This document shows, piece after piece, positions 6,691 through 63,085 of a stretch of DNA of 64,000 nt. Each line of letters starts with the position of its first letter. Within the stretch, counting starts at the first letter, position 1. This DNA comes from Cephalotus follicularis (lineage: Eukaryota; Streptophyta; Magnoliopsida; Oxalidales; Cephalotaceae). The position numbers and the translations under genes are program-made. The notes beneath the pieces are model-generated. The model made no database searches, was not told the origin of the DNA, and saw only the letters and a program-made list of their open reading frames with translations. The stretch lies in assembly GCA_001972305.1 (NCBI GenBank), contig BDDD01002306.1:1-64000 (forward strand), given 5' to 3'.

Positions 6691-7356
6691 TGTAAGGACC
6701 CAAATTTTTCCATGTAAGATATTATATATGATTGCTATTGTGTTTATCGGCCGACAGTTACACTTAAAGCGTCGACGCTTTAGGTGAGAGTCGATCTCCT
6801 AATTTTGAACGTCGACGCATTGAAGTTATATGAGTCAGTTGACTTAAAGCGCCGACGCTTAGAAATAAAGAGTCGACGCTTTAGTCGGGATAGAGGTGAA
6901 AAACGCAGGAAAAGGCTGTGACGGTCGACGCTTAGAAGGAGACGGTCGACGCTTTGAGCTGCAGACAAAAGGTAAAGTCTGACTTTTTGGCATTTGAGAG
7001 TAGAATTCTCTAATTGGGGACAAGTGGCAGGCCAGGGGAAGATGCTATAAGGTATTATCTGGGGATCTAACAAGTGTAACACTTGGATTGGATTAAATTT
7101 GGTCACATGGGCTGCCAAAATAAACAATTGAATGTGTGAGAGGGGGGAAAGATATGGTTAATACATCTTCATGTAAGATGATTATGTATAAAGTTTGATT
7201 TAAAGGTTATGTATAATCTTACGAGACATAAGTTTATGATGTTATGTACTTTTAGAGAATAGTACCAAAGGATGTAACGTTTCACACCCAACGTAGCGCA
7301 ACCGATCTTCGGAGTTCGCTTTGAGCTTAAGGTGGACTCGGGTCGGGGTCGCTACA
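6691..7356 (+). mobile_element. solo LTR N (Gypsy-like, 666 bp)
   Basis: It begins TGTAAGGACCCAAA and ends GGGTCGCTACA. It is flanked by TATAT on both sides (6686-6690 and 7357-7361), and it interrupts Copia LTR sequence that is continuous in G. There is no internal region, so this is a solo LTR. It carries a GTCGAC cluster at 6768-6955. The family is probably Ty3/Gypsy from its termini. The TATAT duplication is low-complexity, so it is weaker evidence than the others. Confidence 0.8.
6768..6955 (+). repeat. GTCGACGCTTT palindrome cluster in LTR N
   Basis: About six spaced copies of a motif close to AAAGCGTCGACGCTTT, several of them near-perfect palindromes, in 190 bp. They lie in the front half of the LTR where promoter elements are expected. 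Confidence 0.8.
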
Positions 7357-8463
7357 TATATAAAGAGATTTTTAGCGGGAACATGTTTTAATTTTATTAT
7401 TAAAAATGTGAGAGACATTTTTATCAAATTAATAGGAGAGAAAGTCATAAAAATTGCAAGAGATTTTAAATGATTAAAAGGAGAAATTTTTGGCATATTT
7501 TGAATTCCTTTAACACACACTAAAAATGCACAGCTATGCGTTTTGGTGCGAGAGGTAGCGCTTTAGTGCCCAGTGCGCCAGAGGCACTCGCCATGCCTGG
7601 TGTTAGCCCATTGAGCTTGGGAAGATGGACGGCGCTTCACACCTATGGCCGTGAAGAGGAGTGCGGTTGTCCACAGTATGCCTCCTCCTCTCTCTCTCCC
7701 GTTTTCTCCCTCTTTTTCTCTCTAGTGGAAGATTAATTTTCTGCCACCTCTCCCTCCCGGCGTCTCTTTCCATAGCCATCGATCAACATGGGTCAAGCCA
7801 ATCAATGGCTCTATCCATTTTGATCTTAGTCTAGGCGTTTTTCAGATCATTTTTCGCTAGTTTACGTTTTGTGAGTTGACACTTTCGAGTCGACGCGTCG
7901 GCTGTCGTGACCCTCGGGTGGAGGTGTGAAGATCAGCATCTATGGAGTCCGGATATGGCGCGGCCGGTTCGTGGCGATGTTGAATCGGACCGCTAAGTCC
8001 AACTCAGCGAGTAACGGTCGCTGCCGACTTCGTCAGGGCGTTCTTGGGCGCTTCTCGCCAAGTCTCTACCGGATATGGGTAGATCGGTACTTCTGGAGTC
8101 CGTTGGTGTCTTGGTCGGCGTTCTGACAGGCTGGCCAGAATATGGCTGTGGTCAGGTGACGGGTTGTGGCTACTGCAAGAGCGTTGTGGCAAAGTAGTGG
8201 AGCCTCCAATGTTGGTATGGTCGCTTCCCTTTTTGCATTTATGTTAACCGATGTGTTTTCTATTTATTGTTTTTGTTGATGCCTGTTTTCGTTTTAGTTC
8301 GATTGTTAATTAAACGGCGATCCTAGGCATATTGATTATGGTAGTAAGATGTTAGTGTGAACCTTGACTTGCAGTCTTGGTGGGTTTTGAAAAATTAAAA
8401 TTATACACACTAGCATCCGAGACCCAAAATCGACTGAGACTCCTCCCCGATTTCCAACACAAT

Positions 8464-9348
8464 GTCCAACATAAAATAAAATGGCAAGGCTAGGGACAAT
8501 TCTATAGTGATTCACATGAGCCAATGTGATCACTGGGTCGCCTAGGTGAACTATTTAATTCTACTTTATTGAATCGAGTACCATGCATTCTTGGCCTTCA
8601 ATTCTTGGTCATGCAACTTCCTTGATCTTCCTCTCCATCCTCCATTTGATCCTCCTCCATTGCTTACAAACCTTTTAATAAAATTTCATTTAAATTTTAA
8701 AGAAGAGAATACAAATAGAGGGAGAAGAGAATCCGATCCTAGAGAGGAATTAAAGATAAGGAATTAAGGTGTTCGTTGGCCACCAAATTACAAACCAAAT
8801 AAAATTTAATAAAGAAAATTAAACATCCACAAAAGAAACCGAAAACTAGGTCAAGTCCCTTAGCCTACCATCATGCATAAAACATCCAGAAAAATATATC
8901 TAATATAAATTTTGAATGAACACTTATCCATTTTAATTTTTGATGGCATATTGAATGAAATGTGTCATGATACGGTATAACTGCCACGAGATGATTTAAA
9001 ATCCGGCATCACAAGGATTACATACCATACTCGTATTTGTCCCGTCGAAAGCGTGGACGCTTTTTCATAAGCGTCGATGCGTGCATCAATGCTTTGCGTA
9101 ACCTTCCTCCCTTTAAATAAAATGTCATAGTTTAAACCCTTAAGCGTCGACAATTTACGCCTAACCTTCAGTGCTTAATGTTGCCATTAGCGCTTAGCGT
9201 CAACGCTTTGTCTAACCGTCGACGCTTTACCAGAAATAGTCGACGGTTAAACAGCAACAAGACGACACTATGTCAGAAACAACCAGTAAAATAACTCAAA
9301 ACAACCACAAAAAATCAAATACAAAGTTTAACTAGGGTTGATTAGTTC
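8464..9348 (-). other. AT-rich leader-like region beside Copia LTR M
   Basis: No gene seen. 8464-9030 is AT-rich without repeats I recognise. 9040-9245 holds GTCGACGC-type motifs. The Met-tRNA primer site at 9349-9360 on the minus strand implies that this stretch is the start of the internal region of element M, whose coding part is absent from the window. Confidence 0.5.
9040..9245. repeat. GTCGACGC motif cluster next to element M
   Basis: About seven imperfect copies of AGCGTCGACGCTT in 200 bp. Seen from M it lies downstream of the LTR and primer site, unlike the other clusters, which lie inside LTRs. Confidence 0.7.
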
Positions 9349-9360
9349 GCTCTGATACCA
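9349..9360 (-). promoter_or_regulatory. tRNA-Met primer-binding site of element M
   Basis: The minus strand reads TGGTATCAGAGC, the standard site complementary to initiator tRNA-Met. It starts two bases after the LTR end on that strand, and it fixes the orientation and inner border of LTR M. Confidence 0.85.
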
Positions 9361-9362
9361 AT

Positions 9363-11748: not shown

Positions 11749-11753
11749 AATTT

Positions 11754-12644: not shown

Positions 12645-12681
<37 letters not shown>

Positions 12682-23751: not shown

Positions 23752-23935
23752 ATAAGTGTAACGCCCGGTATTTTCATTTTTTTTTGTAATATTTCATTTT
23801 AAGATGTAATCGTATGCTTGGATTAATGAAAATGTTGGAGATTTCACCTCAATAATGTTACCAAACCCTAATTATTGCTTTGGGAGAAAGGAAGGTGTGT
23901 GTTTAAACCAAAATGGTGCAGTTTTGGGATAAACG

Positions 23936-24095
23936 CATCGATGTCTTTGGAAAGACGTCGACGCCTATGGGAGCAAAGGCGTACGTGGATGCATATACAT
24001 GCACGTCGATGTAGGCAAAGACATCGACTCCCTCGTGTGAAAAGGGAAAAGTCATCGACGTCTATGGAAGACGTCGACGTCTTTGAAAAGAATAT
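23936..24095 (+). repeat. first ATCGAT/GTCGAC cluster, A 5' LTR
   Basis: About seven copies of ACGTCGACGTCTTTG-like motifs in 160 bp, about 180 bp into the LTR. The matching cluster in the 3' LTR is at 31420-31570. A related cluster is in K on the minus strand (1592-1745). Confidence 0.85.
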
Positions 24096-24582
24096 CAGTC
24101 ACGTTATGAACTGACAGAGTAACATGCAAGAGGGAAGGAATTAGGATCCTTGCAGGCGCCTCGAGGCACGGGAAGGAGACGTGTTGATCATTCATAATGG
24201 CCTCCTGACCTGCATGACTGAAGAAGAATGAAGAAGGTAACAAGTGTTACCATGCATGCAACCTGTAAATAAAACATGAGAAGAAAACAAAAGGCAGAAA
24301 CTCACTGGGAAAGAGGGAGAGAACACGAGAGTGCTCATTGAATGCAGGGAGAAAGAGGGAGAGGGAGCCATCTACATAAGAACAACCCCCTCCCCACCTC
24401 TCTCTCTCATTTAAAACACCAAAGGAAAGGAAGAGGAGAAAACCAGTGAGTGGTGAAAGAGGGAGCCACCATTGTTGAGCTTGTTTGGAGATAGAGACTT
24501 GGAGCTCGTGGATTGCAGCTGTTGAGCGGAACTTGGAGCTGCTGTGGACAGAACCTTGGAACTCAAAGAGGTGGACTTTCCA

Positions 24583-24610
24583 GTTCCTAACGTGGAACAA
24601 CAAGGTAGGG
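24583..24610 (+). promoter_or_regulatory. stem-loop and candidate 5' splice site in A 5' LTR
   Basis: Inverted repeat GTTCC (24583-24587) and GGAAC (24594-24598) with a six-base loop, followed by AACAAG|GTAGGGG. The same layout is in LTR H (59887-59916), in LTR J (63929-63972) and in the 3' LTR of A at 32066-32094. A spliced leader is an inference; no transcript evidence is available here. Confidence 0.5.
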
Positions 24611-24841
24611 GAAAGTGATGGTTCTTATACATGCATTTTGAGTTTTAAGATAATGAATACCATTAATGAGTTGCATGTTAATGGGTGAATTGTAATTTCT
24701 GGACTTCTGTGATGATTACTGTGAAATACGGAGTAACCATGCATATGTGATTACATGAATATGTGAACTGGTTTGTGTAAAGGATGGATATTATAATGGC
24801 TTGTTGTATTAAAACTGTGGAGAAAACGTTCTGGGTTGGAT

Positions 24842-25360
24842 AGACATCGACGTCTACATGAAGACATCGATGCCTTCGTGTGAAAATGTGAAAGATATCG
24901 ATGCTTGAGTAAAGACATCAACGCCTTTTCTGGGCATTATAGAACAGTAATGTTATGCCTTCGTGTGTGAATGAGAAAGACATCGATGTCTTTGGGAAGA
25001 CATCGACGCCTTTTCTGGGTATTCCAAAACAGTAGTGTTTACTGTTGTTGGTGAACTGCCCTTGGTGATTGCATGTTTTATTCATGAAATGGTGTTTTGG
25101 TTATATTCCCTGTTAACCAGTAGCATGCCTTACACGTTGAGAGAGTGAGATTCTTTTATATGAAGAATTAAAGGGCCGGATTCTACCCTCCAGGATCAAG
25201 ACTCGCGAACTAATACCTCCTGGTATTCATAAAGACATCGACGTCTTTTGAAAAGCATCGACGTCTTTGGTCTGAAAATGCCTGGGAATAACTGCACAAG
25301 TGTTGGCGCCTTAGGGTAAAAGACGTCGACGCCTTTGGGATAAACATCGATGCTTATCCC
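24842..25360 (+). repeat. second ATCGAT/GTCGAC cluster, A 5' LTR
   Basis: About twelve spaced copies of the GACATCGACGTCTTTG type, often in pairs 15-25 bp apart, downstream of the candidate donor site. In the 3' LTR the equivalent is 32324-32835, where the part at about 32706-32782 is replaced by an A-tract. Confidence 0.85.
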
Positions 25361-26139
25361 TCTGTTTGGAAAAGTTTCACTCGAATGGGACCCGTTAGAC
25401 CCGAAACGACTCTAGGAACGAACCTAGATGCATTCTGAGCATATGTTTGCATTATTACTGTGAAGTGCATTATGGTTGATTTCAAAAAGTGTTAACGATT
25501 TTGAAAGGCTTACATGATTATTATATTAATTAATTGCATGAAAATGTATATTTGCCAAATACATATATATATTTTTGAAATGATTGGGGAAAGTATTTTC
25601 CAAAGACGGAGAAATGTTTAAAGGATTATCTATACAATCAAATTGTATTGTTTTAAGTTTATAACTTATTACAACATGAGACGGAGTTTTATAATTTAAA
25701 CAAATATATTTGATCAAGTAATTATATTCATTGCTTGACTTGTACTGTACGGTGTTTGTGCTTGTTGATTATTGGCCGCTGTGCTAATAACCTGTTGATT
25801 GTTTAGCCGTCGTGCTAAGAAACCTCTACGGAGGACTTGCTTCAAACCATTCGCAAACGGGGATTTGAGTTAGAGTGCATGACGTTGGGGCCAGGAGGTG
25901 GCGACGGTGATGATGACTTGTTTGTCTGGTTCCCTTTTGGGGACATACTTGCTACTTGTGTTGATATAGCCTTATGAGGTTATACCTGTATTGTGAACAT
26001 GCATATACTTATACATGTATATACTGTGATATATATATACTGAGATATATATACTGTACTGCATCACAATGCATTCATTCATGTTGCTCATTATCATATA
26101 CCTCGAATTGTATTTAAGAGTCTTTTCACTTAGCCGAAT

Positions 26140-26180
26140 GAGGACAAAGGCTAACCCCTACTGTAACAGATTGATGGAGT
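26140..26180 (+). promoter_or_regulatory. conserved block and candidate 3' splice site in A 5' LTR
   Basis: GAGGACAAAGGCTAACCCC is followed by CTACTGTAACAG|ATTGATGGAG. LTR H has the same block at 61886, then TGTGTTTCAG|GTTGATGCAG. LTR D has a related block before CCATCTCAG (40728). Paired with the donor at 24604 this would remove an intron of about 1.57 kb lying wholly inside the LTR. Confidence 0.45.
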
Positions 26181-26549
26181 GGGATTTGATATGGAGCAAT
26201 GCAAGGAGACTTACGGAGAAGACTGAGTTGTTCTTATATCTTATGTACTGGTTTACTGAACAATGATCATGATAATTGGATTTTTGTAATGTGGTTTATT
26301 TCTTTCATACTATATTATCACACTCCATTTATGGGCGATCGACAATGTTATTGGGTTTTACATAAACTTTGTGGGTATCACGTAGTATGGGATGCGTGAT
26401 ACATATTTAAATTCAGCTTAATTCATGTTATTGCTTCCGCTATTGAAGGTTTTTTGCTTTTACGTTTTGTCGCATAAGATGAATTATGTTGTGTTGATTG
26501 CCTTACCGCTCTAATGTTGTCCTCATGGAAAAACGGGGGCGTGAAAAAA

Positions 26550-26657: not shown

Positions 26658-27780
26658 ATGGACCGAAGGAGAACGCGTGCTAGGGCTAGAGCTGTTGGAG
26701 CCAATGACCCTGAAGAAGCGGATATGCCGCAAGGAGTGAATGTCCCCCAGGATGATAGGGATCCGATGACCCGGATTGTAGATTATTTCCAGCAATAGAT
26801 GGCCTTTAATTTGGCTAACGCGGAGGAGATGCGCCAGTACTACGCGCAAGCTTGGCCGCAACACAGAGCTCCCGATCACTGCCTGGGAGAGGATAGTAAC
26901 CAGTTTGGGAGGGACATTGAAAGGTTTATGAGACATAATCCACCCAGTTTCCAGGAGAACTTGATGCTACTGTGGCTGAGAGATGGCTGCAGGACCTGGA
27001 GAAAATCTTTGAAGTAATGGACTGTACTGAAACTCAAAAACTGAAGTTTGCTGTATACCGCCTATGGGGTGAAGCCACTCATTGGTGGGAGATGGTCAAG
27101 ACGAAATGGGAATCTCAAAGGCTTTACAGTATTTGGGGAAGATTCCAGGCAGAATTCTTGGAGACATATGTTCCTCAGTTGGAACAAGAGCGCTGGGAGA
27201 CAGAGCTCTTGGAACTGTGACAAGGGGAAATGACGGTGACCGAGTATCAAGCAAGGTTCATGGAGCTAGCTAGACACTCGCCTTATCTTGTAGCTGATGA
27301 AGTGAAGAAGATACGGAGATTTTTGAGGGGTCTGCGACCGGATCTTTGGTCAAGAATCAGAGCTATGGAGTTGGGAACTTTTGTGGAGGTTGCTCAGAAG
27401 GCGAGATTGATAGAGAGCATATCCAACGAGGACTGAGCAGAGAGGGCTCAAGCATAACAAAATAAACAGAGTCCGACGAGGCCAGCTTCTTCAAAATGGC
27501 AAGGCAGCGGTTCTCCGACAAAATCATCGAAGAACAAATCTGGGCAGACTGCCACACAGGGTACTCCTAGCCAAGGGAGTAATGCAGGTACTGGGGCTTG
27601 TTATAACTATGATCGTAAAGGCCACTTACAGAAAGATTGTTGGAGGATGAATGGACTGTGTTTGAGGTGTGGGGCATCTGGCCATTCCGTGAGAGATTGC
27701 CCGAAGAGTCAGGCTACAACATCTACTAGACCAGGGGGCCTTCACAGCGAAGGGACACCAGCAAGGGCATTGCAAAAGGT
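26658..27780 (+). pseudogene. gag of element A
   Basis: It begins with ATG at 26658, 96 bp after the primer site, giving a basic start (MDRRRTRARARAVG). The capsid region follows, with LKFAVYRLWGEATHWWEMVK near 27035-27100 and FMELARHSPYLVADEVKKI near 27260-27315. Two CCHC knuckles lie at 27599-27702 (CYNYDRKGHLQKDC and CLRCGASGHSVRDC). Gag assembles virus-like particles in the cytoplasm and the knuckles bind the element RNA. The capsid is the retrotransposon-gag type of Tekay chromoviruses. A few interruptions are present. Translation would continue into pro-pol, as is usual for these elements. Confidence 0.88.
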
Positions 27781-30700
27781 AGAGTTTTTACCCTTTCACA
27801 GACAGAGGTTCCGGAGTCTACCTCAGTCAATGGAGGTACATTGTATATTTATGGTTTTTCTGCTAGAGTGTTGATGGACCCTGGAGCATCACATTCTTTT
27901 ATTTCCTCACAATTTGCATCACACTTAGATGTAACACCAGACTATATGCCATACACCTTGGATGTGAGCACACCTGCTGGAGTTTCCATGTATACAGATA
28001 CCGTATATAAGAGTTGTGAGATGTCTGTGGCAGGCATTCCCTTGTATGCGGATTTGATAGTATTGCCCATCCGCGACTTTGATGTTATTTTGGGGATGGA
28101 TTGGCTGTCAGCACATCATGCTTACATGGACTGCTACAGCAAGAAAGTTGATTTCCGTCTGCCCGATGATATCGTTTTCCAGTTTAAGGGAGACAGGGGG
28201 TTTTCCACACCGGTTATATCCTTTATCCGTGCGTCGAGGTATCTCGAGAAAGGATGTGAAGGATATCTTGCTTATGTAATTGACCGGAGGAAAGAGAAGG
28301 GTTCGAGCCTGGAGGAGATCCCAGTGGTGTGTGAATTTTCAGATGTATTTGCCGATGACGTAGGATCTTTGTCACCAAAGAGGAATATGGAGTTTGTTAT
28401 CGATCTTATACCAGGTACAACTCCTATTTCCAAAGCACCGTATAGAATGGCTTCTGAAGAATTAAAGGAACTGAAATTGCAGTTACAAGATCTGATAGAT
28501 AAGGGTTTCATTCGACCAAGTGTTTCTCCGTGGGGTGCGCCTGTACTGTTTGTCAAGAAGGAGGACGGGTCGATGAGGCTCTGCATTGACTACAGAATGT
28601 TAAACAAGGCAACTATCAAGAACAAGTATCCTTTACCCCACATCGAGGATTTGTTCGACCAGCTGCAAGGAGCGAGAGTATTCTCGAAACTTGATTTGAG
28701 GTCAGGCTATCACCAGTTGAGAGTGAGGGAAGGAGATATAGAGAAGACTGCTTTCCGGACAAGGTATGGTCACTACGAGTTCCTCGTAATGCCTTTTTGT
28801 GTTACCAATGCACCGGCTGCGTACATGTCATTAATGAACGATGTGTTTCGACCGTACCTGGATCCGTTTGTCGTTGTGTTTATTGACGACGTACTAGTAT
28901 ACTCAAGGAGTGAGGAGGAGCATGCTTGGCATCTGAGGTTGGTTTTGCATATTCTCCGAGAGCAGCAGCTGAATGCCAAATTTAGTAAGTGTGAATTTTG
29001 GCTTGACCGTGTGATCTTCCTTGGTCACATTGTATCTGGAGATGGTTTGGCGGTGGATCCGTCGAAGACAGAGGTGGTACGAGATTGGCCACAGCCGAAG
29101 AGTGTAACAGAGGTACGCAGTTTTCTTGGATTAGCGGGGTATTACAGGAGGTTCATCCAGAAATTTTCAAAGATAGCTGAGCCCTTGACTAGACTGACAC
29201 AGAAGAAGACCTTGTTTATCTGGGATGAAGATTGTGAAGCTAGTTTCCATGAACTGAAGGATCAGTTGGTTTCCGCTCCTATCTTGGAATTACCCGAGGG
29301 TAATGAGGACTTTGCAGTCTATAGTGATGCATCGGGTAAAGGCTTGGGTTGCGTGTTGATGCAACGAGGTAGAGTGATCGCTTATGCTTCGTGGAAGCTA
29401 AAGCCATACGAAGAGAATTACCCGACTCGCGATCTTGAACTGGCAGCTATTATCTTTGCTCTTTAGAAATGGAGACACTACTTGTATGGAACTCAATTTG
29501 AGATCTTTACTTATCATAAGAGCTTGAGGTACCTGTTTTGTCAGGACACACTAAACATGAGACAGCGCAGGTGGGTAGAATTCTTTAAGGATTATGACTG
29601 CAGTATCCAGTACCACCCGGGGAAAGAGACTGTAGTCGCTGATGCCTTGAGCCGCAAGGCTATGGTTGCCAGTACGATGGTGTCGCAATGGAAGATGTTA
29701 GAAGACTTCCAAGAGTGGTCTCTGTTTAATCAGGCACCGTGAATCTTTGTGGTCGACATGCGGGTCCATCTAGTGTTACTGGATCACATCAGGGATGCAC
29801 AACCACACGATCCAGAGTTGCAACGAATTCAGGAGAACCTGGACTCGGAATCCAATTTTCGAGTACATGCTGATGGTTTTCTGAGATTTCGGGGACGTGT
29901 GTGTCTCCCAGATGAACCAGGGTTGAAGAATGAGTTGCTTCGTGGGGCTCATAAATCTTTGTACAGTATTCATCCTGGTAGTACCAAAATGTACCAAGAT
30001 ATGAAGAAAACTTACTAGTGGCCTAGCATGAAGCGCGAAATTGCAGAATATGTTCCGAAGTGTTTGACTTGCCAAAGGGTCAAGGCCGAACACCAGAGAC
30101 TGGCAGGACTGTTGCAGTCATTACCAGTGGCAGAGTGGAAATGGGAACACATCACGATGGACTTTGTTTCTGGATTTCCACTGACTAGGCATCGTCATAA
30201 TGCCGTGTGGGTTATTGTTGATAGACTCACCAAATCAGCACACTTTTTGCCTACACACGTCACTGATTTCGCGAGCAGGTTGGCTCGATTATACGTGAAG
30301 GAGATTGTGAGACTACACAGTGTTCCAGTGAGCATCGTTTGTGATAGGGATTCGATCTTCACTTCCAACTTCTGGAAGAGATTTCAGACAGCATTCGGGA
30401 TGAGATTGAATCTCAGTACTGCTTTTCACCCTCAAACAGATGGACAGTCAGAGCGTACCATCAAAACCTTGGAGGATATGCTTCGGGCTTCTGTGATCGA
30501 TTTTACTGGGACATGGGAAGACCATATTCCTCTGATAGAGTTTTCTTATAATAACAACTATCACGCGAGTATTGGTATGGCTCCATACGAGGCACTGTAT
30601 GGGAGGAAGTGTAGGTCACCCATCTGTTGGGACGAGGTTGGTGAACGACCATTGCTTGGGTCGGATTTGGTGGAGGAGACTTCGGAGAAAGTCAAGTTCA

Positions 30701-31197
30701 TCAAAGAGAAGTTACTAGAAGCACAAAGTCGGCAGAAGAGCTATGTTGACAGTGTGAAGAGGAGGCCTTTGACCTTCAGTGTGGGAGATCACGTGTTTTT
30801 GAAGGTATCTCCGTGGGAAGGGGTACAAAGGTTCGGAAAGAAGGGCAAGTTAGCGCCACGCTATATTGGTCCTTTTGAGATTCTAGAGAGGGTTGGGGAG
30901 GTAGCTTATCAGCTAGCCTTGCCTCCTACTTTGTCGGGTGTACATGATGTCTTCCATGTATCGATGCTACGAGGTTATATCCGAGATCCATCACATGTCC
31001 TGGATTATGACTCGGTTACGGTGAGGGATGACCTTTCCTACGAGGAGTCACCCGTGAGAATCTTGGATTGGAAGACACAAGTATTGAGGAACCGGACTAT
31101 CCGGATGGTGAAGGTTCAGTGGCAATTTCATCAGCCGGATGAAGCGACTTGGGAATGTGATGATGATATCCGAGAACGTTACCCGCATTTGTTTTAG
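27781..31197 (+). pseudogene. pro-pol of element A (protease, RT, RNase H, integrase, chromodomain)
   Basis: Protease: [10 protein letters not shown] near 27877 and [12 protein letters not shown] near 28080. [21 protein letters not shown] near 28505, [15 protein letters not shown] near 28682, and the catalytic FIDDVLVYS near 28879. RNase [15 protein letters not shown] near 29318 and [10 protein letters not shown]. Integrase: zinc region H..H..C..C near 29950-30085 (CLTCQ), then core TMDFVSGFP, IVCDRDSIFTSNFW and HPQTDGQSERTIKTLEDML near 30157-30480, supplying D, D and E. The C-terminal tail (IRMVKVQWQFHQPDEATWE, ending RYPHLF) is a chromodomain-type module that guides integration to heterochromatin in this family. 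The longest open part is 27841-29466. A few breaks are present. Confidence 0.93.
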
Positions 31198-34028: not shown

Positions 34029-34033
34029 ATAAG

Positions 34034-41857: not shown

Positions 41858-44800
41858 TGTAACACCCCCGATTCGGCGGGAGTCGTTACGGTTCCTAATC
41901 TGAGACTAAGCATAACCTATCATATAACATAGCTTGATTTTATTCTTTTTATCATATTATTAATTCATATTTTATTCAAATTGCGTGATGGTCTAAAACT
42001 TAATATTCAAAATCTAAAACATTGTCTAAGACTTTGTTCATAATATGAAACTTAAACATAAACCAAACTGAAATATAATCCAAAGTCATAAACTGAAAGA
42101 CATAATATTAATCAAATAGGGGGTCCTAACATGACCATAAAAAAAAAATGCAAAAACGAGTCCATCTCCTAAGTGATCCTTATCATAGGTAACATCTCGC
42201 TCATCACACATTTCCCGGATGCTGTCCCAGAATACCTGCCGCATGGAAACAAAAACGCGACTGAGCAAACCTCAGTACAGATATAGAATCATAAAACATA
42301 AAACGATAGTTTAAAAGATAGAAAATACCTGAATCTTTAAATATCATATACCTTATGCATAAAATAACTTAATATGATTTTCAAAAGCAAAAGTAAATAG
42401 TCACACAATCAATTCAAAATGAATATCTAATTTTCAAAGAGTTATTCAATTTCAAAACATAATCCAAGTTCAAAACAGTATCCAAATCAAACGTCAAGTT
42501 ACTTTAACATCAACCAAGTTAAAGATTTTAAAATAAAAACTTATCCGATTCCATAATCTCATCATAGAGATCCAAACATATAACAGAGACTTATCCGATT
42601 CCGAAATCTCATTACCAAGATCCAAGGCGCATACACATATGCGTAGTTGCAAGGGGTTTGTAAGGCCCACATGCCAAACGGAAGGACGTGTACGACACTA
42701 TACAATCAATCCCCAAAATCCGAATCCTTAACATAACAAAAACTAGAGTATACCCATACGCCTCTATCACAAAATCGGATCCATAAATCCACCTCATGGG
42801 ATTTATTCAAAACATAGAGAGACGCCGTAGTCAAATCACACCGCTACGGAAGTGTCATGTCCCCGTGCCAAGCCTACGACATGCCTATGGTACCTCCATA
42901 GGTAGGAAATATCTCTGTGTATATCCTTATTTCAAAAACATCGCTTTATTTCTATAAAAAAAAATAGTTTAAAAATGTAAACACATTTTCTGAACATTTT
43001 CTGGACATAGAAAAATCATTACATAGCATCAACTCATTTATTTTAAACTATAAAGAGATGATCGTATCATATTTCTTAACATATCATAGCATATGAATAA
43101 AGTCAAGAACATTAAATTCGCAAAATGTCAACTGACTTTTATTTACAAAATCGTATCGAATCATAAAACATAGCCAAGTTCATAAAACAAGAGGAATCAC
43201 ATTTGAATTCATTTTAGTAAAACCAAAGGAATAAGCCAAGAATGAAGAATCCGTACTTTAATCATAAAAAGTAAAATGGGATAGTTTCAATTAAATCAGA
43301 TGGCCAAAGAACAGAAAATCCGTACATCATTCATAAGGTAAAACTATCATAAGTAAAACTATCTTTTTACCATAATAAAACCAATAGGAGGGTATCAAGG
43401 AATGAAAAATCCGTACCTTAAGCATTCATAACAAAGATAGATGAATTGATCAACAATTTTAAAAGTCCCTCGAAGCACAAAAATCTAAAAGATGCAATAC
43501 CATTCATATAAAGGTTCAAAAATCACTTCCAAACATCAAACAGTAATTTAACAGTGTCAAAACATACTCCAAATTATTAGACGAACAAACGGATTACAAA
43601 ACTTAAAACCAGAAAATTCACTGGACAATTCCAGCCGACTGTATCAAGATCCAGTCGACTACTCAAAGGGTGGCAGTCGACTGTGCTGAATAGGCAGCCG
43701 ACTACTCAAACTGGGTTGAATCTAGTCGACTGTGCAAGGCAACCAGTCGACTGTTTAAGGATGGCAGTCGACTACTCAAGGTCTAACAGTCGACTGTTTA
43801 AATGGTCAGTCGACTGTTCTGCTCGACAGAACAGCACAATTCTAACAAACCTATGTCAATTTTCTATCAAAATCGTTTTATTACATTACCAGATGATTTT
43901 AAACACTTATATAGGACTTATGTGACATATCCGTTGTATTTAAACATCCAGAATCAAAAGTTCATGCAATGGGTGATCTTTATTTAAAGAGAAGCAATAT
44001 TCTAACTCATAGCATGCATAACTATTAATCATATACCAATTTCTAGTTTCAAAATCTGTTTATAACCATTACTAGACACTTCAAGGCTTGCTAAGAATCT
44101 TAGAAACATTAACCAAACATACATGGCAAGAATCAAAACTAAAACTTACTAGCAACCACATGAAATAGAATTTGATAACATTTAAACTAAATTTAATTGC
44201 TAAACCATAATAACAGAGGAAGAACAAACCTGGTATGATGATCAAAGGAGAACAAAACGAATTCTAATCTTGCAGGTTCGGGTCTTAGGCACAATGACAC
44301 AATGGAGGCATAAACAATGAATAATAACATACATATACAATATGGAAAAGGTAATTTAGGTCATGGTAATGTAGAAAAGGAATCTAAATCTGATATAATG
44401 TGGAAATAGGGCATAATTTCGGGATTGAGGGAGGGGAAGAAGGAAAGAAATCATATTTGGGAAGGAAGAAGGAAGAAAAACGGGAGAGAGAGGTGAGAAA
44501 ATAGAAACAAAAATTATTTTGCGAAAATACAATATTTGTTCCCTTTTAAAATCCTTTTTACATTGTTTGTATTAAAAACTAATTTTAATCACTTTAAAAT
44601 ACCCATACCAATTATTACCTATCTATAATTACATTTTATCAATTATCAACATAGTTGGTATTATAAAGCCCAAACATAAAGTCCAAATAAAATTTTAAAA
44701 TGGACCAACCTAATAACAAAACAATAAATTCTTACTTTTCCAACCATCATATTCTAATAAATATGAAAAGCCCTAGTTTAAAGTCATATAGTCCAAAGAA

Positions 44801-49897: not shown

Positions 49898-50458
49898 TGA
49901 TAAGCATAAAAATGTATTCTTTTTAATGAGTTAATTGTTGTATTTTTATGCGTGCAACATATTACTTTGGTGATGTTTGATTGACTTTCAGGTAAGAAGC
50001 CTAAGAGATCAAAATGCAGAAACTTGAGTCAAACAGGCACAAATTGAAAGCAAGAAGATCAAAGATTGAAGAATAGCAAAATTCTGCAGAAAATAGAGGA
50101 AGACATTAACGCCAATCTTTAAGTGTCGACGCCTAACCCTTAAGCACTGACGATATCAGCTTAAGCATCGATGCTTTGAACTTTAGTTGGCACAAATTTG
50201 CAGAACTATGATTTTCGTCAACACCAATATGTTTGGTGTCAACGTGCTGGGAATTCAATATTAGGCATCAACGCCATGAGGAAGATGTCAACGCCATAAT
50301 TGCACAAATTGGATAGTAGCGTACGCGTTAACGTGCAAAGAGGAAGATGTCGATGCCATCATGCTTAACAACTTAAGCGTCGATGCGTTACTTTAACGTC
50401 GACGCCTTACATTAACATCGATGCTTAACGCTCAAGTATGCCCCAGAACGCAAGAGTC
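49898..50458. other. block Q, left part: unclassified LTR-like sequence with GTCGAC cluster
   Basis: It begins TGATAAGCATAAAAATG right after LTR P sequence and contains TTTCAGGTAAGAAG, which resembles a splice donor. At 50108-50430 it has about ten GTCGACGC-type motifs. It continues on the other side of G at 55587. It may be an LTR of another Gypsy lineage, but I could not match its end. Confidence 0.5.
50108..50430. repeat. GTCGACGC motif cluster in Q
   Basis: About ten imperfect copies of TAAGCGTCGACGCC, including CATCGATGC and GTCAACGCC forms. It resumes right of G at 55587-55675, so G landed inside the cluster. Confidence 0.75.
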
Positions 50459-52432
50459 ACATCTGTTGGAAACCTAGCAAGGGTTCCCGGTCGATTTGGT
50501 CCTAGGACGTAAGTGTGTATAATTTTAATTTTTCAAAAACACCAAGACAACAAGTCAAGGTTCACACTAACATCTTAGTACCAAATAAATAAGCCTAGGA
50601 TCACCGTTTAATTAACAATCGAACAAAAAAAAAATCAAGCATGCGCAAGAAAAATAACCGACACCACATCGGTAAATGTAAAGCTTAAGGGAAGCGACCA
50701 TACCAACGTTGGAGGCTCAACCACTTTGCCGCTACACGCTTGCAGCAATAACCGCCCTTCACCGGACCCACTGCGCAATATCCGAAGAGCACGACAGCGA
50801 CCAGCCACCACAGTAACGGACACAAAAAATGCCGATTATCCCAAAACCGGTGGAAACACGGTGAGAAGCACCCCGAAATGCCCAGGCGCTGCTGGCAGTG
50901 CCGGCAACTCACTGAGTTGGACTCAACGATTTTCGATACAACTTGCCATGGATCAAACACACAATATCCGGTCTTCAAAATACCCGATCTTTAAAACTGT
51001 GGCAGAGACCCACTGCGACTCACCATGGAATGGGCGGTCACAGCGAATCGGCGAGTCGGACTCATTGAGTCAACTCGCCCGACCAAACCAGGGCTGGCTA
51101 CTTCAGCCCCGTGCCATAGACCACACTATCTAAGCACCAACAACCAAGACTCACCGTTACTCGGTGCAAAACACCAAGTCACAATGGCAACTCGGCAAAT
51201 AGACAAGGTCAACTCAACAAACGCATACCGACCAAAACACGATCAGAAAATGCTAAACTAAGATCAAAATGGATAGAGCCATTGATTGGCTCCACCAATA
51301 GTGATCATCGGTGATAGAAAGAGACACACGGAGCAAGAACGGTAGAAAATGACAACTGCTATGAGGGAGAGAAATGGGGGAGAAAGAAGGCGAAAATGGG
51401 AGAGAGGGGGGAGGAGGCTTAAAATTGAAGGACACTCGCCTTCACCTGGCCACCAGAGCGAAGATGCGTACATCTTCCTTGGCCTAGCAGGCAACTCTGA
51501 AGCGCTAAACGCGTTAACGCGTTGGACACATGAAGCGTGTCCCTCCCTCCCATTAAAACGCGCAAATGCATTTTTGGCATGTCCCTTTTTTGTAAAAGAC
51601 AAAAGTTTTTACTTAAATCAAACTGTTTTTCTTTTCTCCTTTTTAAATTAAAGTCTTTCATCTAATTTTGTTTCTCCCTTTATCAAATAAAGACTCTTTC
51701 TTTATTTTGATTTAATTAAAATTAAATCATGCTCCGGCTTTAAATCTCTATATACATCAAGATGACTATTAGTGGAATGTGAAACAAACCACTAATGTCA
51801 AAATAATATATACTGGTTAAAAACTAGATTTACCACCAAGCGAGAATGTGTGCAACATGCATCACTTTTCCAATAATCGGGCGGGCCCCGAAAGCACGAT
51901 GGAATTTTGGTACGATGATAAATTTCCAAGAACATCCCTAAGTTCTAGTACGACTATCTAGCTAATAGCCCCTGTGTGATCTGTAATCACCCCCAGATCT
52001 GTGGACCACAAAGTACCACGTCTATCATTCGTTAGCCTGTTCCATAGTGCTTTATCACTGTCATCAGTTTATGTACCGTATATCCATCCTTATCTCGGCT
52101 CCGACCATGGACTAGGGTTTCGATTAATGTAACCCTAGGAAAAACCGCGATAACTATAATTCCATGAACGCACTTAGACTATGGGAGATATCCCCAGAAA
52201 CCTCTATTCCCAATCTCCCAGTGCCCGACCGGGAATTCAAGTCTTCAACGGTCACAGAAGTTATAGAGCCTAGAACCCTCAACACGGGTGTGACGATCCC
52301 ATCTTGCGAACTCGCCCATACAACTCAATGCAGCTCCCACAAGGCCCAAAGCCAAACCTTTTTCCAGCACGTGGCTAGTGCTGGGGAAGCCGAAAATCAA
52401 ATCCAAGCAGTTACTACACAACGCATGCTAGT

Positions 52433-55030
52433 TGTAGTACCCCATTTGTCTGTGTGCATAGTTTTTGGCTTTTTAATCTGTTTTGTTAAGTAGTCTATCT
52501 TTTTTTTAGACTGCAAGGTTTAAAGTGTCGACTGTTCTATGTTAAGCGTCGATAGTTTACTAAAGTGTCGACGCTTTGAACATTAAAGCTTCGACGCTTG
52601 AACCCTTTCCAACGCCGGTTAAAAACAGTGAGTTTTTATCTTGGACAAACTTCTCCAACCGACGACACTCTAAATGTAAGCTTCGGCGCTCCAAAGTCAA
52701 GCATTTTTTTTACCTGGACGAAGCTCGTAAGTGGTGACACTTGGAAGTGAAGCGTCAAAGCTTTGCCCCGCATATCAGATGAAGAACCTTCGACAAACCC
52801 GTAAGTGGGGAAGCTTGGAGGTGTAGCGCGGATGCTTTGGCCTGCATAATAGTTGTAGAAGTTAACATTTTGTCTTGTTATGAATGAATTAAATGGATTG
52901 AGGGACACGTTTCAAGCAAGGAAGTAAGGAGTTAAGATATTTTTATGGAAAGGGACATGTGTGATCTTTTGGGTGGATGGATTTGAGCACATGGGCAACT
53001 AAGGGAGGCATTTTCACATGGGTGATGTCATTATGAGGCATGGTGGCATGGTGGCTCACCCCATGCATGCTTGCTCTACATGTTTTCTCTTTGTATAAAT
53101 ATATGTGTAATTTTATCTAAAAATAGATTGGCTTTTGCTGAGTTTGGAGAGGAGAATTCAGCTAAGAGAGGGAGAGAATGAGATTAAAGCAAGGTAAGGA
53201 TTTCAACCATCCATGCTCTGTTTTCTTCGGATAATTGGCAACAGATTGTTTTATTAATATCTTGCTCGTTCTTGATGAAATTTCGAAAGGTTGGATGTTT
53301 TGGAAAAGTTAGGATGTCCTCTTTAACTGTTATGCTTTGTATGTTTCAAAATTCTGTCGATTTCCTGACGAGAATCCATGTTTTAAATTATTGCTCGGGT
53401 ACTATTTTCTTCTGTTTTATTCCTGGATTATGCAGCAACTTCTTTAAATCATAGATTTTTTGTTTCTTGATAAAAAAATAAATGGTTGAATGTTCTAAAA
53501 ACCTTAAGATGTCCTCTTGAACTGTTAAGTTTCATGTATCTAGAATTTCTATCCAATTCCTGACGAAAATCTATGTTCAAAATTTCTGTTCATGTTCTAT
53601 TTTCATATGAAATCAGTGACTTTAAAAATTCACTGCAGCTTCGTTTCTCAACCAAAAATTATGAACTTTACCTTTCTAGAATCTCTGAAACGTCTACTTT
53701 AACTTTGATGTTTTATGTTTTCTCTGAAAATGACTATGTATATACGAAAAATTAGGTTTAGAAATTGTTATCTTTTCATAAATTATGTTTTACTTTATGA
53801 AAATGTACGGATTTTGTTATCGGATGTTTGTTCGAATTTTATAAAATCTTTTACTGAAGTTTAATACTTCCGGTTTTATAAATTGAGTATGACTTTCACT
53901 ATCGGAAGTATACTAAACGAGTATGACTTTCAGTTATGAAAGTATACTTATTTTTTTTGACATTGAACATGACTTTCACATTAGGAAGTATGTAACTTTT
54001 CATATACATATATGATTATGATATGTTCAGAAAATATTTAGAAAATATGTTTTTGAATTGATTTTAGATAAAGCAATATTTTTGGAATAATAACATACAG
54101 AGATATTTGTTTCCTACCTATGGAGATACCGTAGGCAAGTCGAAGGCCTGGCACGGGGACATGACACTTCCGTAGCGGTGTGATTAGTCTACGACGTCTC
54201 TCTTTGTTTTGATATCCTTTGAATAGGATTTGGATCCCCCTTTTGATAGAGGCGTATGGGTTAACCCTAGATTTGGTTATTGGATTCAGATTTTAGGGAT
54301 AGACAGTGTAGTGCCATACACGTCTTTCCATCGGAGCATGTGGGCCTTGCAAACCCCTTGCATTTATTATATATATACATATATATCCATCAGATCTCTG
54401 TTATGGAATTATTTATTTGGATATTTATGATTTTTTGGATTCGGATTATGAAATTCAGATTTTTCTTTGAATCTTGGTTATTGCTTATGAAATCGGATTT
54501 CGTTTTTGGATTTTGCTTTCGAATTTTGTCTTCGGATTTTGCTTTCGGATATTGTTTTGAAATCGGATTTTTCAGATTTATGATTTAAAATTTCAGGTAC
54601 TTCCTGTTTTGTTTAAATCATCATTCTATGTTCTATATTCCTTATCCTTACTGAGGTTTGCTCAGCCGCGTTTTGTTTTCCATGCGGCAGGTTTTCAGGA
54701 GCATCATGGGAATGTGTGAGAGAGACCCTATGTCTGAGGATCATGTAGAAGATTGGTCCGTTAATGTTTTTGTTGTCTTATGGTCACGTTAGGGCCTGAC
54801 TTTTGAGCAATGTTATGCTCTTCAATTTATGACTTTTGTGAACCATTTTATGATTTTCGAAATATGACCTTGGTTATGATTTTCAGATCTTGTTTCGGAC
54901 TATGGTATGTTAAGGGATTTTATTTCAGACCACTACGTTAAATGAACAAAGTCGAGTTTTTGTTATGTATATATTTTGTTTAGTTCTGTATTATGACCTG
55001 TAAGGGCTCCCACCGTTTGGGGGTGTTACA
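52433..55030 (+). mobile_element. solo LTR F (2.6 kb, Gypsy, same family as E)
   Basis: It starts TGTAGTACCCCATTTG and ends GGGGGTGTTACA. The flanks are CTAGT (52428-52432) and CTAGC (55031-55035), a target duplication with one difference. 54100-54400 and 54590-54800 match LTR E in inverted orientation, including the CATGCGGCAGGT block. It contains a GTCGAC cluster at 52525-52845 and a CAAG|GTAAGG site at 53190. Confidence 0.9.
52525..52845 (+). repeat. GTCGACGCTT motif cluster in LTR F
   Basis: About nine worn copies of AAAGTGTCGACGCTTTG, the best ones at 52525-52600. It starts about 90 bp into the LTR. Confidence 0.75.
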
Positions 55031-57154: not shown

Positions 57155-57985
57155 TGATAAGGAGCTTGAAATTTTGTCCATTTAATGGAGTTTCAAGTTT
57201 GATGTCCAGATTAAATGAATCAAGCAATGAATACTTATGATTCCAAAAATATGATTTGGGAAGGTTCCCATAAGCCTACATTTATTAAATTTCGTGGTCT
57301 TCTATGCATGGAAGCTAGTATCAACGTATGGGAAACATGATAATTCGGGTTTCAAGACTTGGGAAGTAGTTTCAAGGCATGAAAGCTTGTTTCAACACAT
57401 TGGTTTCATCTTTCAAGACTTTGATTAATTCCTCTGTAATTTCCTATGAAGACTCATTTATTATCTCCTAGTTTGTTGTATTTGTAGTTTGACCAATCAT
57501 TAATGATGTAATCTGGTTGGTTTAGTTCACCATGTGGTTAAACAACAACTAGCCATGGTTCCTAGTAGTAGGTTTGGCCTAAAGCTTATAAAAGCCTTTG
57601 AAACATAATGTAATTGGATTTTGGACGAATTTTAATAATACTTTGAAGTATTAAACTAAACTTTGTGTTCTTTTATCTCCTTTATCCATGTCTTGATCTA
57701 GCTTGGTGGTGGATTGTTCTTGCTAGTGGCTTTGCCTTTATGCTTGGACCTTCTTTGATCAATTATCTCTATCTTCTACATTTATTGACAAAAATCAGAA
57801 AATTAAACCTTAAAGAACCTCCAAACCCGTGACCTATCACTATACACCACCCTAAAGACTAAACCAGCCCCTAATCCTCCTTACATACCTTCCAAAACAT
57901 ATCCCCATTGTCCATAAAATTGAACCAGCCTTAAACACTATTCCTAAAGTCAATATATCACTTGAAAAGCCCACTTACACCCGCA
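57155..57985 (+). repeat. putative 5' LTR of element I
   Basis: It begins near TGATAAGGAGCTTG and ends in CGCA five bases before the first primer site. TATAAAAG at 57587-57594 is a plausible TATA box. About 830 bp long. The left border is a guess from the TG start; the right border rests on the primer site. Confidence 0.55.
57587..57594 (+). promoter_or_regulatory. TATA box in LTR of element I
   Basis: TATAAAAG about 430 bp into the putative LTR and about 400 bp before its end, a normal place for the U3/R border. Confidence 0.6.
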
Positions 57986-58154
57986 TGAATTGGTATCAGA
58001 GAACCAGGTTTGAATCCTCCTTACATACCTTCCAAAACATATCCCCATTGTCCATAAAATTGAACCAGCCTTAAACACTATTCCTAAAGTCAATATATCA
58101 CTTGAAAAGCCCACTTACACCCGCATGAATTGGTATCAGAGAACCAGGTTTGAA
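57875..58154 (+). repeat. 140-bp tandem duplication covering LTR end and primer site
   Basis: Two adjacent 140-bp copies (57875-58014 and 58015-58154) that look identical. Each contains the LTR end and the primer site TTGGTATCAGAGAACC, at 57991 and 58131. Identity implies a recent event or gene conversion. Confidence 0.93.
57991..58002 (+). promoter_or_regulatory. tRNA-Met primer-binding site of I, first copy
   Basis: TGGTATCAGAGA right after the LTR end. A second copy is at 58131-58142, in the duplicated segment. Confidence 0.82.
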
Positions 58155-58174
58155 GTGAGCTCTTATCAACATCA

Positions 58175-59423: not shown

Positions 59424-59575
59424 GGCAGCCGACTGCCACAGGGAGGCAGCCAACTGGACCCCCCTGGTGAAGGCAGCAGCCAGCTGCTGTGCGAAAGCAG
59501 CCGACTGGTGGGGGTTTCGGCAAAAACAGTCGACTGCCAAGTCATGGCAGCCGACTGCCAGGCGCCAGACAGCCC
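59424..59575 (+). repeat. first GCCGACTG cluster in LTR H
   Basis: About seven copies of GGCAGCCGACTGCCA or AGTCGACTG in 150 bp, upstream of a TATA-like CCATAAAAAC near 59658. Position and layout resemble the first cluster of LTR A. Confidence 0.85.
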
Positions 59576-60084: not shown

Positions 60085-60610
60085 ATAGGGGCAGTCGACT
60101 GTCCAGGGAGGACAGCCGACTGTCCGAGGCCAGTAGTCGACTGTTCGCGAGGAACAGCCAACTACCCATAGAGGGCAGCCAACTGCGTATAGGAGCCAGT
60201 CGACTATTTGTGCCTGGTATTGCAGGTTGCTTCCTGTTGATTGAGTAGCCGACTGCCAGAGGAGGGCAGCCGACTGTGGGTGGTACAGTCGACTGTTTTG
60301 GGTAACAGCCAACTGTCCACGTGTCACATTACTCGGGCTTGCTGAGGTGGCATGCTGGGACAAGTGGCGACAAAGGAATGTGTATGGACCAGCCAAATGC
60401 CAAGGAGGGCAGCCTACTGTTGGTAAGGGACAGCCGACTGCCAAGGAGGGCAGCCGACTGTTGGTAAGGGACAGCCGACTGCCAAGGAGGGCAGCCGACT
60501 GTTGGTTAAGGGCAGCCGACTCCCAAGTAAGGGATAGCCAAGTAAGGGACAACCGACTGTTGAAGGAGAACAGCCGACTGTCAGTGAGAGACAGCCGACT
60601 GTTTGGGACT
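60085..60610 (+). repeat. second GTCGACTG/GCCGACTG cluster in LTR H
   Basis: About twenty copies. At 60404-60525 three nearly identical 41-bp units occur, each with AGGAGGGCAGCCGACTG and GGTAAGGGACAGCCGACTG. It lies downstream of the candidate donor, as in LTR A. Confidence 0.88.
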
Positions 60611-61349: not shown

Positions 61350-61550
61350 ACTTAGCCGTCGTGCTAGTATCGTGGATGTTATTGTATTGATTGTGATTGA
61401 GTGTTGCCGGTAGCGGGGTAATGTTGGTACTTAGCCGCCGTGCTAGTATCGTGAGTGTTGCCGTTAGCTGGGAAGTGTTGGTACTTGCCGCCGTGCTTGT
61501 ATCATAGCGTGTTCAGAGTGTTGTTACTCACCGTCGTGCCAGTGACGGGA
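61350..61550 (+). repeat. CTTAGCCGCCGTGCTAGTATCG repeats in LTR H
   Basis: Four imperfect units of about 50-80 bp, each with CCGYCGTGCTAGTATCGTG and AGTGTTG. LTR A has two similar units at 25775-25830. Confidence 0.75.
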
Positions 61551-62285
61551 ACAATTGTTTGCATTGAGTGTATTGATTGTCTGCCATGACATGCCTGATT
61601 GAGTATAGTGTTGTCCTTGGGGACGTGACTGATCGTTACTGTGGAGTGATGGGTCCTTAGAGACCTGAGACGTAGTTGGCTACTTGTGCTGTTGTGATAT
61701 TGTGAACCGTGTAGTGAGATGATGTGTTCTGGTGACATCGTGGGCAGTGACCTTGTGGTCGTGGCATATGTATATATATATATATCTATATATATGCATC
61801 GAGATATAGTATGTACTGCATCATTGTGCATTCATGTCATGACATGTTTTATCCTTGACCCTGGATCGCTTTTATGGCTTTGCCGAGTGAGGACAAAGGC
61901 TAACCCCCTACAACTTCAGTGTGTTTCAGGTTGATGCAGCGGATTGTTACCGTTGAGCTCCGTGGAGCGAATGGAGTTTATGTTGTTTCTACTTTTGAGA
62001 AAAGTTAGTGGATCTTTGTAATAAATGAATCGATGTAATGATGAATATTGTTCACGCTCCGTTTGAGGGCAGTTAACTTTGATGATGTTTATTGTTGTAG
62101 CATGTAGTATGGGATGCATGTTACGTTATAATTCGGCTTATTTTTAAATGCTTCCGCAAGTTGTTAATGGATATGGAAAGTTTTAAATTTATGGTAAATT
62201 GCATAAGTCGGATTTATATGTTGATTGACACCACTATATATGTTGTTTGTGAAACGGGGTGTGACAATCGATTATCGACCAATGA

Positions 62286-62832
62286 ATGGAGAGTTGCTGG
62301 TTAAGGATGGATGATCAAAGAGAAAACATATTTCAATCAAGATGCTCTATTGGGATCAAAATATGTTCCATGATTATTGACAGTGGGAGTTTTGCTAACG
62401 TTGCTTCCACCCCCTTGGTGACTAACTTGGGGCTTCCAACAACATCTCATGCGAAACATTATAAGCTTCAATGGCTTAATGATGGAAACCAACTGAAAGT
62501 TACTCATCAAGTCCTACTCTCTTTCGCCATATGTAAACACTATAATGATGAGGTTCTTTGTGATGTAATTCTAATGGATGCCTGTCATTTGTTACTTGGA
62601 AGACCGTGGCAGTTTAATAGGAGTGCCATTCATGATAGAAGGAAGAACACTTATACAATTAAAAGAGATGAAAAAAAAGGTTGTATTAACATCTCTTAAA
62701 CCCTCCCAGTTACTTGACGCCAAAACAGAAGAGAGCTTGTTTTTGAATGGTGGATGCGTAGAGAAAGCTTTGGATGAGAAGAAGGGTGTTCTTGCTTTAT
62801 TGGTTGTGGAACGAGATCAACGGGAGGAAATC
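62286..62832 (+). pseudogene. protease region of element I
   Basis: The open part at 62286-62699 includes the aspartic protease motif IIDSGSFANVASTPLVTNLG near 62374-62433, then YKLQWLNDGNQLKVTHQVLL and DVILMDACHLLLGRPWQFNR. This is the retropepsin-type domain found after gag in several plant Ty3/Gypsy lineages. It would process the element polyprotein. It follows solo LTR H directly and is cut by LTR J at 62833. Confidence 0.85.
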
Positions 62833-63002
62833 TGTAATAACCGCAAATTCAATTAATGTATATTGCTCAAATTTTCAATAAAATTAAAATTTTAATTGAG
62901 TTTATTTGTCCAATTATAATAATTATGTGATTGGTAAATGCTTGGGTTGAATGGAGATACAAATTGGTGAAAAACAAACATAAGAAACCCTAAATCAGCT
63001 CA

Positions 63003-63085
63003 AACAGCCAACTGTCACAGGGCAACAGTCGACTGTCTGATGCGTGGTGTGACAGTCGACTGCCTGTTAATGACAGTCGACTGGA
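63003..63085 (+). repeat. AGTCGACTG cluster in LTR J
   Basis: Four copies: CCAACTGTC, CAGTCGACTGTC, CAGTCGACTGCC and CAGTCGACTGG, spaced about 18-24 bp apart and ending 5 bp before the TATA box. Confidence 0.85.

Follow-up and report, generated by a model that had tools for sequence, protein, structure and literature searches.

The DNA analysed here is a 64,000-nucleotide stretch of the Cephalotus follicularis genome (contig BDDD01002306.1, positions 1 to 64,000; the window), in which remains of long terminal repeat (LTR) retrotransposons are found together with clusters of short palindromes that have GTCGAC as their main core. GTCGAC occurs 38 times in the window, compared with a mean of 5.7 in dinucleotide shuffles (largest 13; none of 100 reached 38), and ranks first in over-representation among the 64 six-letter palindromes, at 6.3 times its dinucleotide expectation; ATCGAT, with 28 occurrences against 14.5 expected, is a weaker part of the same pattern. 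The clusters resolve into arrays, that is, rows of TCGA-centred palindromes set 19-22 bp from neighbour to neighbour. An array was defined as three or more sites with no successive gap above 75 bp and one or more gaps of 18-23 bp; by this definition there are 15 in the window, whereas 100 simulated controls gave a mean of 0.19 and a maximum of 2. An initial annotation of this DNA had reported such clusters, and a density equal to that of shuffled sequence, named beforehand as the result that would speak against them, is excluded by both counts; sites are present within about 20 bp of every location that it listed, or within about 35 bp for the one beside M (9040). Its description of the sites was accurate only in part. 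Palindromes of 10-16 bp had been claimed, and 12 of the 38 GTCGAC copies do lie in a perfect palindrome of at least 10 bp, but the others do not; GTCGAC is the main core but not a constant word, with GCCGAC recurring regularly in E and H, and GTCGAT and ATCGAC in A and K. The regular spacing of 19-22 bp had no place in that account. An Rfam scan and a tRNA scan of the window returned no match, nor did a plasmid search.

Location in an LTR, which the initial annotation took to hold for all clusters, is verified for A and J. Element A is bounded by a 5' LTR at 23757..26547 and a 3' LTR at 31243..34029 (both + strand), which form a direct repeat of 95% identity whose junctions were examined, and the gag-pol remains between them (27458..31194, + strand) contain zf-CCHC, RVP_2, RVT_1, RNase H, pieces of an integrase, and SH3_Tf2-1. 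On the evidence of its RVP_2, RVT_1 and SH3_Tf2-1 domains, element A is a Ty3/gypsy element; beyond the gag-pol remains, no further stop-to-stop open reading frame (ORF) of more than 150 codons was found between its LTRs. The 5' LTR carries array A1 (23937..24078; no strand is assigned to arrays), with six sites of AAAGAC-RTCGAY-GTCTTT, and arrays A2/A3 (24846..25351), with sites at 24846, 24866, 24897, 24982, 25002, 25237, 25257, 25325 and 25346 and a decayed site at 24917. Matching arrays stand in the 3' LTR at 31421-31543 and 32329-32470.

Array J (63005..63083; four sites with gaps of 21, 27 and 21 bp, the first decayed to CAGCCAACTG in the window copy) belongs to a 5' LTR, the second copy of which (92%) is found at contig position 70294, 7.4 kb downstream, with Ty3/gypsy gag, protease, reverse transcriptase and integrase-end domains between the two. 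Just past the end of the window and some 1.1 kb downstream from array J, a five-site array with CAG-class arms (see below) occupies L050:109-216 (contig 64109-64216; L numbers denote individual loci). In J-type LTRs, the first array is accompanied by a second at a distance of roughly 1 kb (J, L012, L028 and, at 8211-8299, L029, a gypsy element related to J). A nested LTR was considered for the stretch L029:7890-9154 but rejected: J, L012 and L028 also have a matching second array, about 1.1 kb away from their first, which makes the stretch more plausibly a segment of a longer J-type LTR, lost from the 5' copy. As to possible membership of A, J and L029 in the Tekay/Del chromoviruses, which carry a chromodomain at the end of the integrase, RVP_2, RVT_1 and SH3_Tf2-1 were found and the scanned pieces gave no match to Chromo; a chromodomain is present in the gypsy element L022, whose terminal repeat has no array.

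Array E (43634..43814) consists of nine CAG-YCGA-CTG sites with gaps of 20, 22, 21, 28, 21, 21, 22 and 20 bp. Its stretch yields 4,750 first-look candidates genome-wide, and among 40 copies listed, a same-strand pair stands 6.4 kb apart on contig C367, from which the E cluster is likely to lie in an LTR. Array K (1596..1740; five sites with arms of the AAAGAC/GTCTTT kind and gaps of 20, 31, 19 and 69 bp) would be placed in an LTR by its similarity to A. The H region contains H1 (59428..59555), with four CAG-YCGA-CTG sites, H2 (60094..60293), with four CAGTCGACTG-like and three CAGCCGACTG-like sites (seven in all), and H3 (60433..60599), with eight sites that are nearly all CAGCCGACTG in one orientation, mostly within a 41-bp tandem repeat. 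Array N (6746..6950; 4,828 first-look candidates genome-wide for its stretch) has nine sites with arms of the AAAGC/GCTTT kind, including an 18-bp perfect palindrome at 6765-6782, and the array beside M (9073..9244) has four sites with gaps of 73, 72 and 21 bp and, judged by eye, arms of the AAGC/GCTT kind. Array Q (50349..50495) has five sites, with single sites also at 50125 and 50167, and array F (52527..52572) has three, with gaps of 21 and 19 bp.

The same regularity pervades the 1.577-Gb assembly, in which counts were compared with those of the reversed pattern as a control and distances were taken from start to start between GTCGAC sites. Pairs at 21 bp number 105,145 (control 1,224), those at 28 bp 12,877 (control 65) and those at 26 bp 582 (control 110), with no excess at 16 bp (68, control 72). 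CAGTCGACTG occurs 197,377 times against 939, and the 18-bp unit AAAGACRTCGAYGTCTTT 51,413 times against 187. Such totals are strongly influenced by large families, and a histogram of gaps with unique linkers serves as a check on this: after similar linkers were collapsed, which reduced 254 adjacent gaps to 151, 82 fell at 19-22 bp, 17 at 28-32, 12 at 40-43 and 19 at 48-53. Among 12 four-letter palindrome cores, the excess at 20-21 bp was largest for TCGA (8.6-fold, 82 pairs), followed by GCGC (3.5-fold, 5 pairs) and ACGT (2.5-fold, 13 pairs). Twenty 10-kb sample loci at round positions (200 kb, some N) contained 31 arrays, distributed over 15 of the loci at a density of about one per 6.5 kb, compared with a mean of 0.47 and a maximum of 3 in 100 simulated controls.

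The information around array sites amounts to about 1-2 bits per base in the core and 0.01-0.5 bits in the linker, core positions being partly fixed by the search rule, and arm and linker positions much less so. While the core is constant across families, the arms are family-dependent and fall into three classes: AAAGAC-RTCGAY-GTCTTT in A, K and the Sirevirus-type elements of L009 and L023; AAAGC-GTCGAC-GCTTT, assigned by eye, in N and, less cleanly, in M, Q, F and the scattered sites of L020; and CAG-YCGA-CTG in E, H, J, L012, L025, L028 and L029. Classed adjacent pairs at 18-23 bp belong to the same class in 68 of 69 cases, 63 of them CAG, and 62 of the 81 adjacent gaps of up to 60 bp in the CAG class are at 20-22 bp, with a further 8 at 27-29 bp. 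GCCGAC variants occupy the same strand in 27 of 30 phased pairs, from few loci. The CRT/DRE (C-repeat/dehydration-responsive element) enhancer RCCGAC is bound by CBF/DREB factors, and barley CBF2 is linked to GTCGAC. The arrays might accordingly be pictured as a stress-type enhancer that AP2/DREB (CBF) factors read through RYCGAC (CRT/DRE) cores, consistent with the frequency of the GCCGAC variant in CAG-class arrays and its preference for one orientation. Neither ATCGAT nor the AAAGAC arms, however, resemble a DRE as that element is generally defined, and an enhancer of this type is considered improbable.

Arrays are also found in Sirevirus-type Ty1/copia elements. The L023 element has a Ty1/copia reverse transcriptase (RVT_2, E 6.4e-73) and three copies of the polypurine tract AGGGGGAG on the element strand, the last directly before AT/TG at the 3' LTR. 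Its 5' LTR is followed by TATCAGAGA, which agrees with the Sirevirus primer binding site TATCAGAGC in eight of nine letters (the exact 9-mer was not found), and a C-rich run, CACCCCCCCTCTTG, is present near the end of both LTRs. A third ORF (Transposase_32) lies ahead of the 3' LTR. The L023 LTRs carry 13 and 15 sites, a further 10-site array stands between pol and the third ORF, and the LTRs of L009 and L023 together have 13-17 RYCGAY sites each. In all four of these LTRs (two per element), the TATA box GCCTATAAAAGGAAG follows 104-125 bp past the last array site, and the observed/expected ratio of CpG, 0.9-1.7 across most of the array, falls to 0-0.4 around and just past the TATA box. Since the arrays precede the TATA box in the Sirevirus-type LTRs, they may well take part in promoter control. 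The initial annotation had reached for a similar argument in J and H, where it fails. A search with J gave about 6,031 first-look candidates and listed 39 copies besides that of the window; among the 20 of these that were retrieved, including the partner LTR of the same element (L030), none has the TATA box, TATATAAAA, that stands beside the J cluster in the window. As a private mutation of the window copy, this box was rejected as promoter evidence. For the TATA-like site proposed after the first cluster of H, no TATAWA was found within 345 bp downstream.

The two superfamilies have one unit in common, as AAAGAC-RTCGAY-GTCTTT is found both in the Ty3/gypsy LTRs of A and in the Sirevirus-type LTRs of L009 and L023. 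When LTR A and region K were compared with five Sirevirus-type LTRs (two of L023, two of L009 and one of L020), many matches of 18-46 bp were obtained, all of them in the four L009/L023 LTRs and at motif units, and with the 18-bp unit masked, nothing remained at E 0.01. Beyond the unit and its spacing, these gypsy and copia LTRs thus have nothing detectable in common; L029 (J-type) and H gave no match to Sirevirus-type LTRs even unmasked. Within the gypsy group, homology beyond the motif links A, K, H and the L024 LTR and, more weakly, A and the J type (about 67% over 197 bp); the arm class has switched within A/K/H/L024/J. Clustering by homology of the 50 arrays in a 280-kb set gives 17 groups at E 1e-10, 14 at 1e-6 and 23 at 1e-15. 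Descent from one shared ancestral LTR segment, which the initial annotation had raised as a way in which the clusters might be explained, is therefore retained within lineages (A, K, H, L024 and, more weakly, J) but rejected as the whole explanation between superfamilies, whose masked LTRs share nothing detectable. The terminal direct repeats of L024 (194-3280 and 5537-8626; 3.1 kb, 89%) enclose only about 2.3 kb of internal DNA, and each carries arrays of two different arm classes side by side.

Constraint on the palindromes was assessed in five J-type LTR lineages (L035 for the J family, L012, L025, L028 and L029) over the 397 columns common to all. Pairwise identity is 0.932 in motif columns, compared with 0.615 in linkers and 0.686 in all other columns; 34 of 40 motif columns are invariant, as are 12 of 39 linker columns, and when four 10-bp blocks were placed at random 20,000 times, the identity of the motifs was reached in 4 cases. 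CpGs of the reference are kept in 14 of 16 cases inside motifs and in 7 of 18 outside. The sample is small, and exchange of sequence between units by conversion could have raised the values. They nevertheless bear on the idea that the arrays are products of functionless tandem duplication of a 21-bp unit. Linkers are somewhat more alike within an array (similarity 0.454 between adjacent linkers) than between arrays (0.345; shuffled 0.312), indicating that some units arose by duplication; the L025 array has extra units relative to its relatives, and most of H3 lies inside the 41-bp tandem repeat, with 93% matches. Duplication alone leaves unexplained, however, that arms and core are kept between nearly random linkers, that the same core and spacing occur in LTRs without other detectable homology, and that motif CpGs are retained in diverged lineages, and it is regarded as very improbable.

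The fixed two-turn period, the self-symmetric units, and the conserved cores amid free linkers together suggest dimers arranged side by side on LTR DNA. The reading that is favoured here, with moderate confidence, is that the arrays are predicted binding sites of a dimeric, most likely host-encoded, nuclear protein and act as a cis-regulatory module of the promoter. A sequence-specific nuclear protein would bind the TCGA-centred palindrome as a symmetric dimer, with neighbouring dimers two helical turns (20-22 bp) apart and runs of them often 27-32 bp from one another; the 28-bp spacing may part groups of cooperating dimers. Arrays in LTRs, upstream of the TATA box in the examined Sirevirus-type LTRs, would then most likely constitute the promoter module. 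A host origin of the binder appears most likely because a Ty3/gypsy element that encodes only gag-pol and Ty1/copia Sirevirus-type elements use one 18-bp unit in LTRs without other detectable similarity. The initial annotation had suggested sites for a dimeric host factor or, alternatively, for LTR recombination. The former proposal survives as the best reading through the fixed spacing, the conserved cores among diverged linkers, and the occurrence of the unit in both superfamilies, though without its TATA argument for J and H; nothing favouring a recombination site turned up, in an analysis that made no test aimed at recombination.

A binder encoded by the elements themselves is the most direct alternative to a host protein. 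In such a scheme, a VANC-like protein, perhaps the Transposase_32 product of the Sirevirus third ORF, would relieve silencing through the arrays and Ty3/gypsy families would exploit it; in a VANC-target system, the protein that binds the motif and lowers methylation is encoded by the element. The third ORF, at L023:3696-4361 and L009:8326-9738, matches the Pfam family Transposase_32 (in L023 just below the curated cut-off), a family with 13,073 first-look candidates in the genome. The 10-site array ahead of the L023 third ORF fits an element-encoded binder, as does the L009 product, which is Lys-rich over a stretch close to its first ATG and is predicted to end in long, low-confidence helices, and family-dependent arm classes would parallel VANC targets as described in PMC5735166. 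Against it, the loci of the four best-scoring Transposase_32 matches have single scattered sites and no array (L052, cut by the contig end, being seen over only 196 bp on one side); on this ground and those of the structural searches below, Transposase_32 was rejected as a general binder. L020 likewise combines a third ORF with scattered sites only, and the gag-pol remains of element A are accompanied by no other ORF above 150 codons. A structure model of one third-ORF copy (mean pLDDT 54.8) matched no solved structure in a fold search (best E 0.81), a profile search of solved-structure sequences gave chance-level matches only (best E 0.23), and the account in PMC6317226 places SIRE third ORFs in 19 groups with little or no mutual similarity. 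An element-encoded binder is thus judged unlikely, albeit less so than the other alternatives. Given that the unit is common to Ty3/gypsy and Ty1/copia elements, a single short DNA probe could serve to isolate the binder, and its possible origin in the elements is directly testable.

The palindromes could also be kept at the level of RNA, either because array transcripts fold into hairpins that feed small-RNA production or because the host targets them. Both arrays tested fold better as RNA than their shuffles (z -5.0 and -3.9; reached by none of 200 and none of 100 shuffles, respectively), which keeps a small-RNA reading alive at lower weight, and an excess of small RNAs on maize Sirevirus palindrome clusters is described (Bousios 2016, as cited in PMC10760457). 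Hairpins, however, require two complementary units and not an invariant TCGA core or a 21-bp period without an excess at 16 bp, and elements would be expected to lose targets of silencing and not to conserve them. An origin in RNA folding or silencing is accordingly rated as having little probability.

Several observations weigh against a dimeric host factor acting at LTR promoters. Because arms differ between families, several proteins or one fast-changing protein may be involved, and the imperfect palindrome CAGCCGACTG, present in a single orientation, is not predicted by a strictly symmetric dimer; since the GCCGAC variants of H (60433-60599) keep one orientation, a directional component in the site is suggested. 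The second preferred spacing of 27-29 bp does not correspond to full helical turns, which leaves simple same-face phasing incomplete as a description, and some units, to judge from the linkers, arose by duplication. A fixed position of the TATA box after the array is seen only in Sirevirus-type LTRs, the Sirevirus-type L020 has scattered sites only, and the terminal repeats seen in L010 (copia), in L015 and L019, and in the gypsy element L022 have no array. Of the 31 sample arrays, 8 are in terminal repeats shown here (2 in L009, 2 in L023 and 4 in L024), 2 stand before a third ORF and 21 are unplaced, most of them because the 10-kb loci are too short. All of the evidence comes from one plant genome and from its sequence. 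A broader version of the host-factor reading, in which numerous LTR families from both superfamilies captured one dimeric host factor with a TCGA palindrome as a promoter module that they share, the arms diversifying while the core and 21-bp period stayed fixed, is put forward as a tentative possibility. If true, a large share of the retrotransposons of this genome would obey a shared regulatory code, and a host factor that reads the arrays would act on much of the mobile DNA of the genome at once, explaining how unrelated families converge on one promoter code.

Apart from the palindromes, a GAGGTCTTGCCTTCAGTAC-like unit of 19-20 bp builds up a large tandem array in the window, with a longer period of 132 bp (18044-19130, also 16740-16890 and 37350-37521), which recurs in two related repeats. 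Two 140-bp tandem copies at 57873-58154 are identical and probably represent a very recent duplication.

Palindromic LTR motifs are known from Sireviruses; searches of an open-licence library found no report of their sharing across superfamilies and no paper on GTCGAC or CAGTCGACTG arrays in LTRs. Clusters of a palindrome in Copia elements are also described in maize, where CACCGGACNNNGTCCGGTG is in addition the most abundant motif of structured regions in Helitrons (PMC10760457); that palindrome differs from the present one in its core and was studied there as RNA structure and a source of small RNA. VANC targets, as presented in PMC5735166, belong to VANDAL DNA transposons, whereas the arrays described here lie in LTR retrotransposons of two superfamilies, consist of a palindrome with a fixed period, and have a binder that is predicted from the sites. 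The closest likeness is to the palindromic repeated motifs (RMs) of Sirevirus LTRs, which were described as a Sirevirus-specific feature that the classic Ty1/copia elements compared lack (Bousios et al. 2010, PMC2829016). Regulation was proposed for them in that paper, and mainly stress-related sites were recovered in its database comparison; as far as is known here, it names no factor reading the RMs and gives no 20-22 bp period. RMs and the present arrays alike comprise many copies of a short palindrome, are CpG-rich, and occupy the upstream LTR half ahead of the TATA box, with additional copies preceding the third ORF. Two published RMs, Vitis CGGTCGACCG and Tnd-1 ACAATCGATTGT, contain the present cores (PMC2829016). 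The L009/L023 family shows this arrangement (a palindrome in at least eight copies, in the upstream LTR half before the TATA box and again before the env-like ORF), and L020 does not. Unlike the CGG-CCG core of Sirevirus RMs, to which the published Tnd-1 motif is likewise an exception, the core here is TCGA. The arrays follow a period of 20-22 bp and, unlike the RMs of PMC2829016, extend beyond Sireviruses to the Ty3/gypsy LTRs of A and J and include one 18-bp unit that crosses the boundary between superfamilies.

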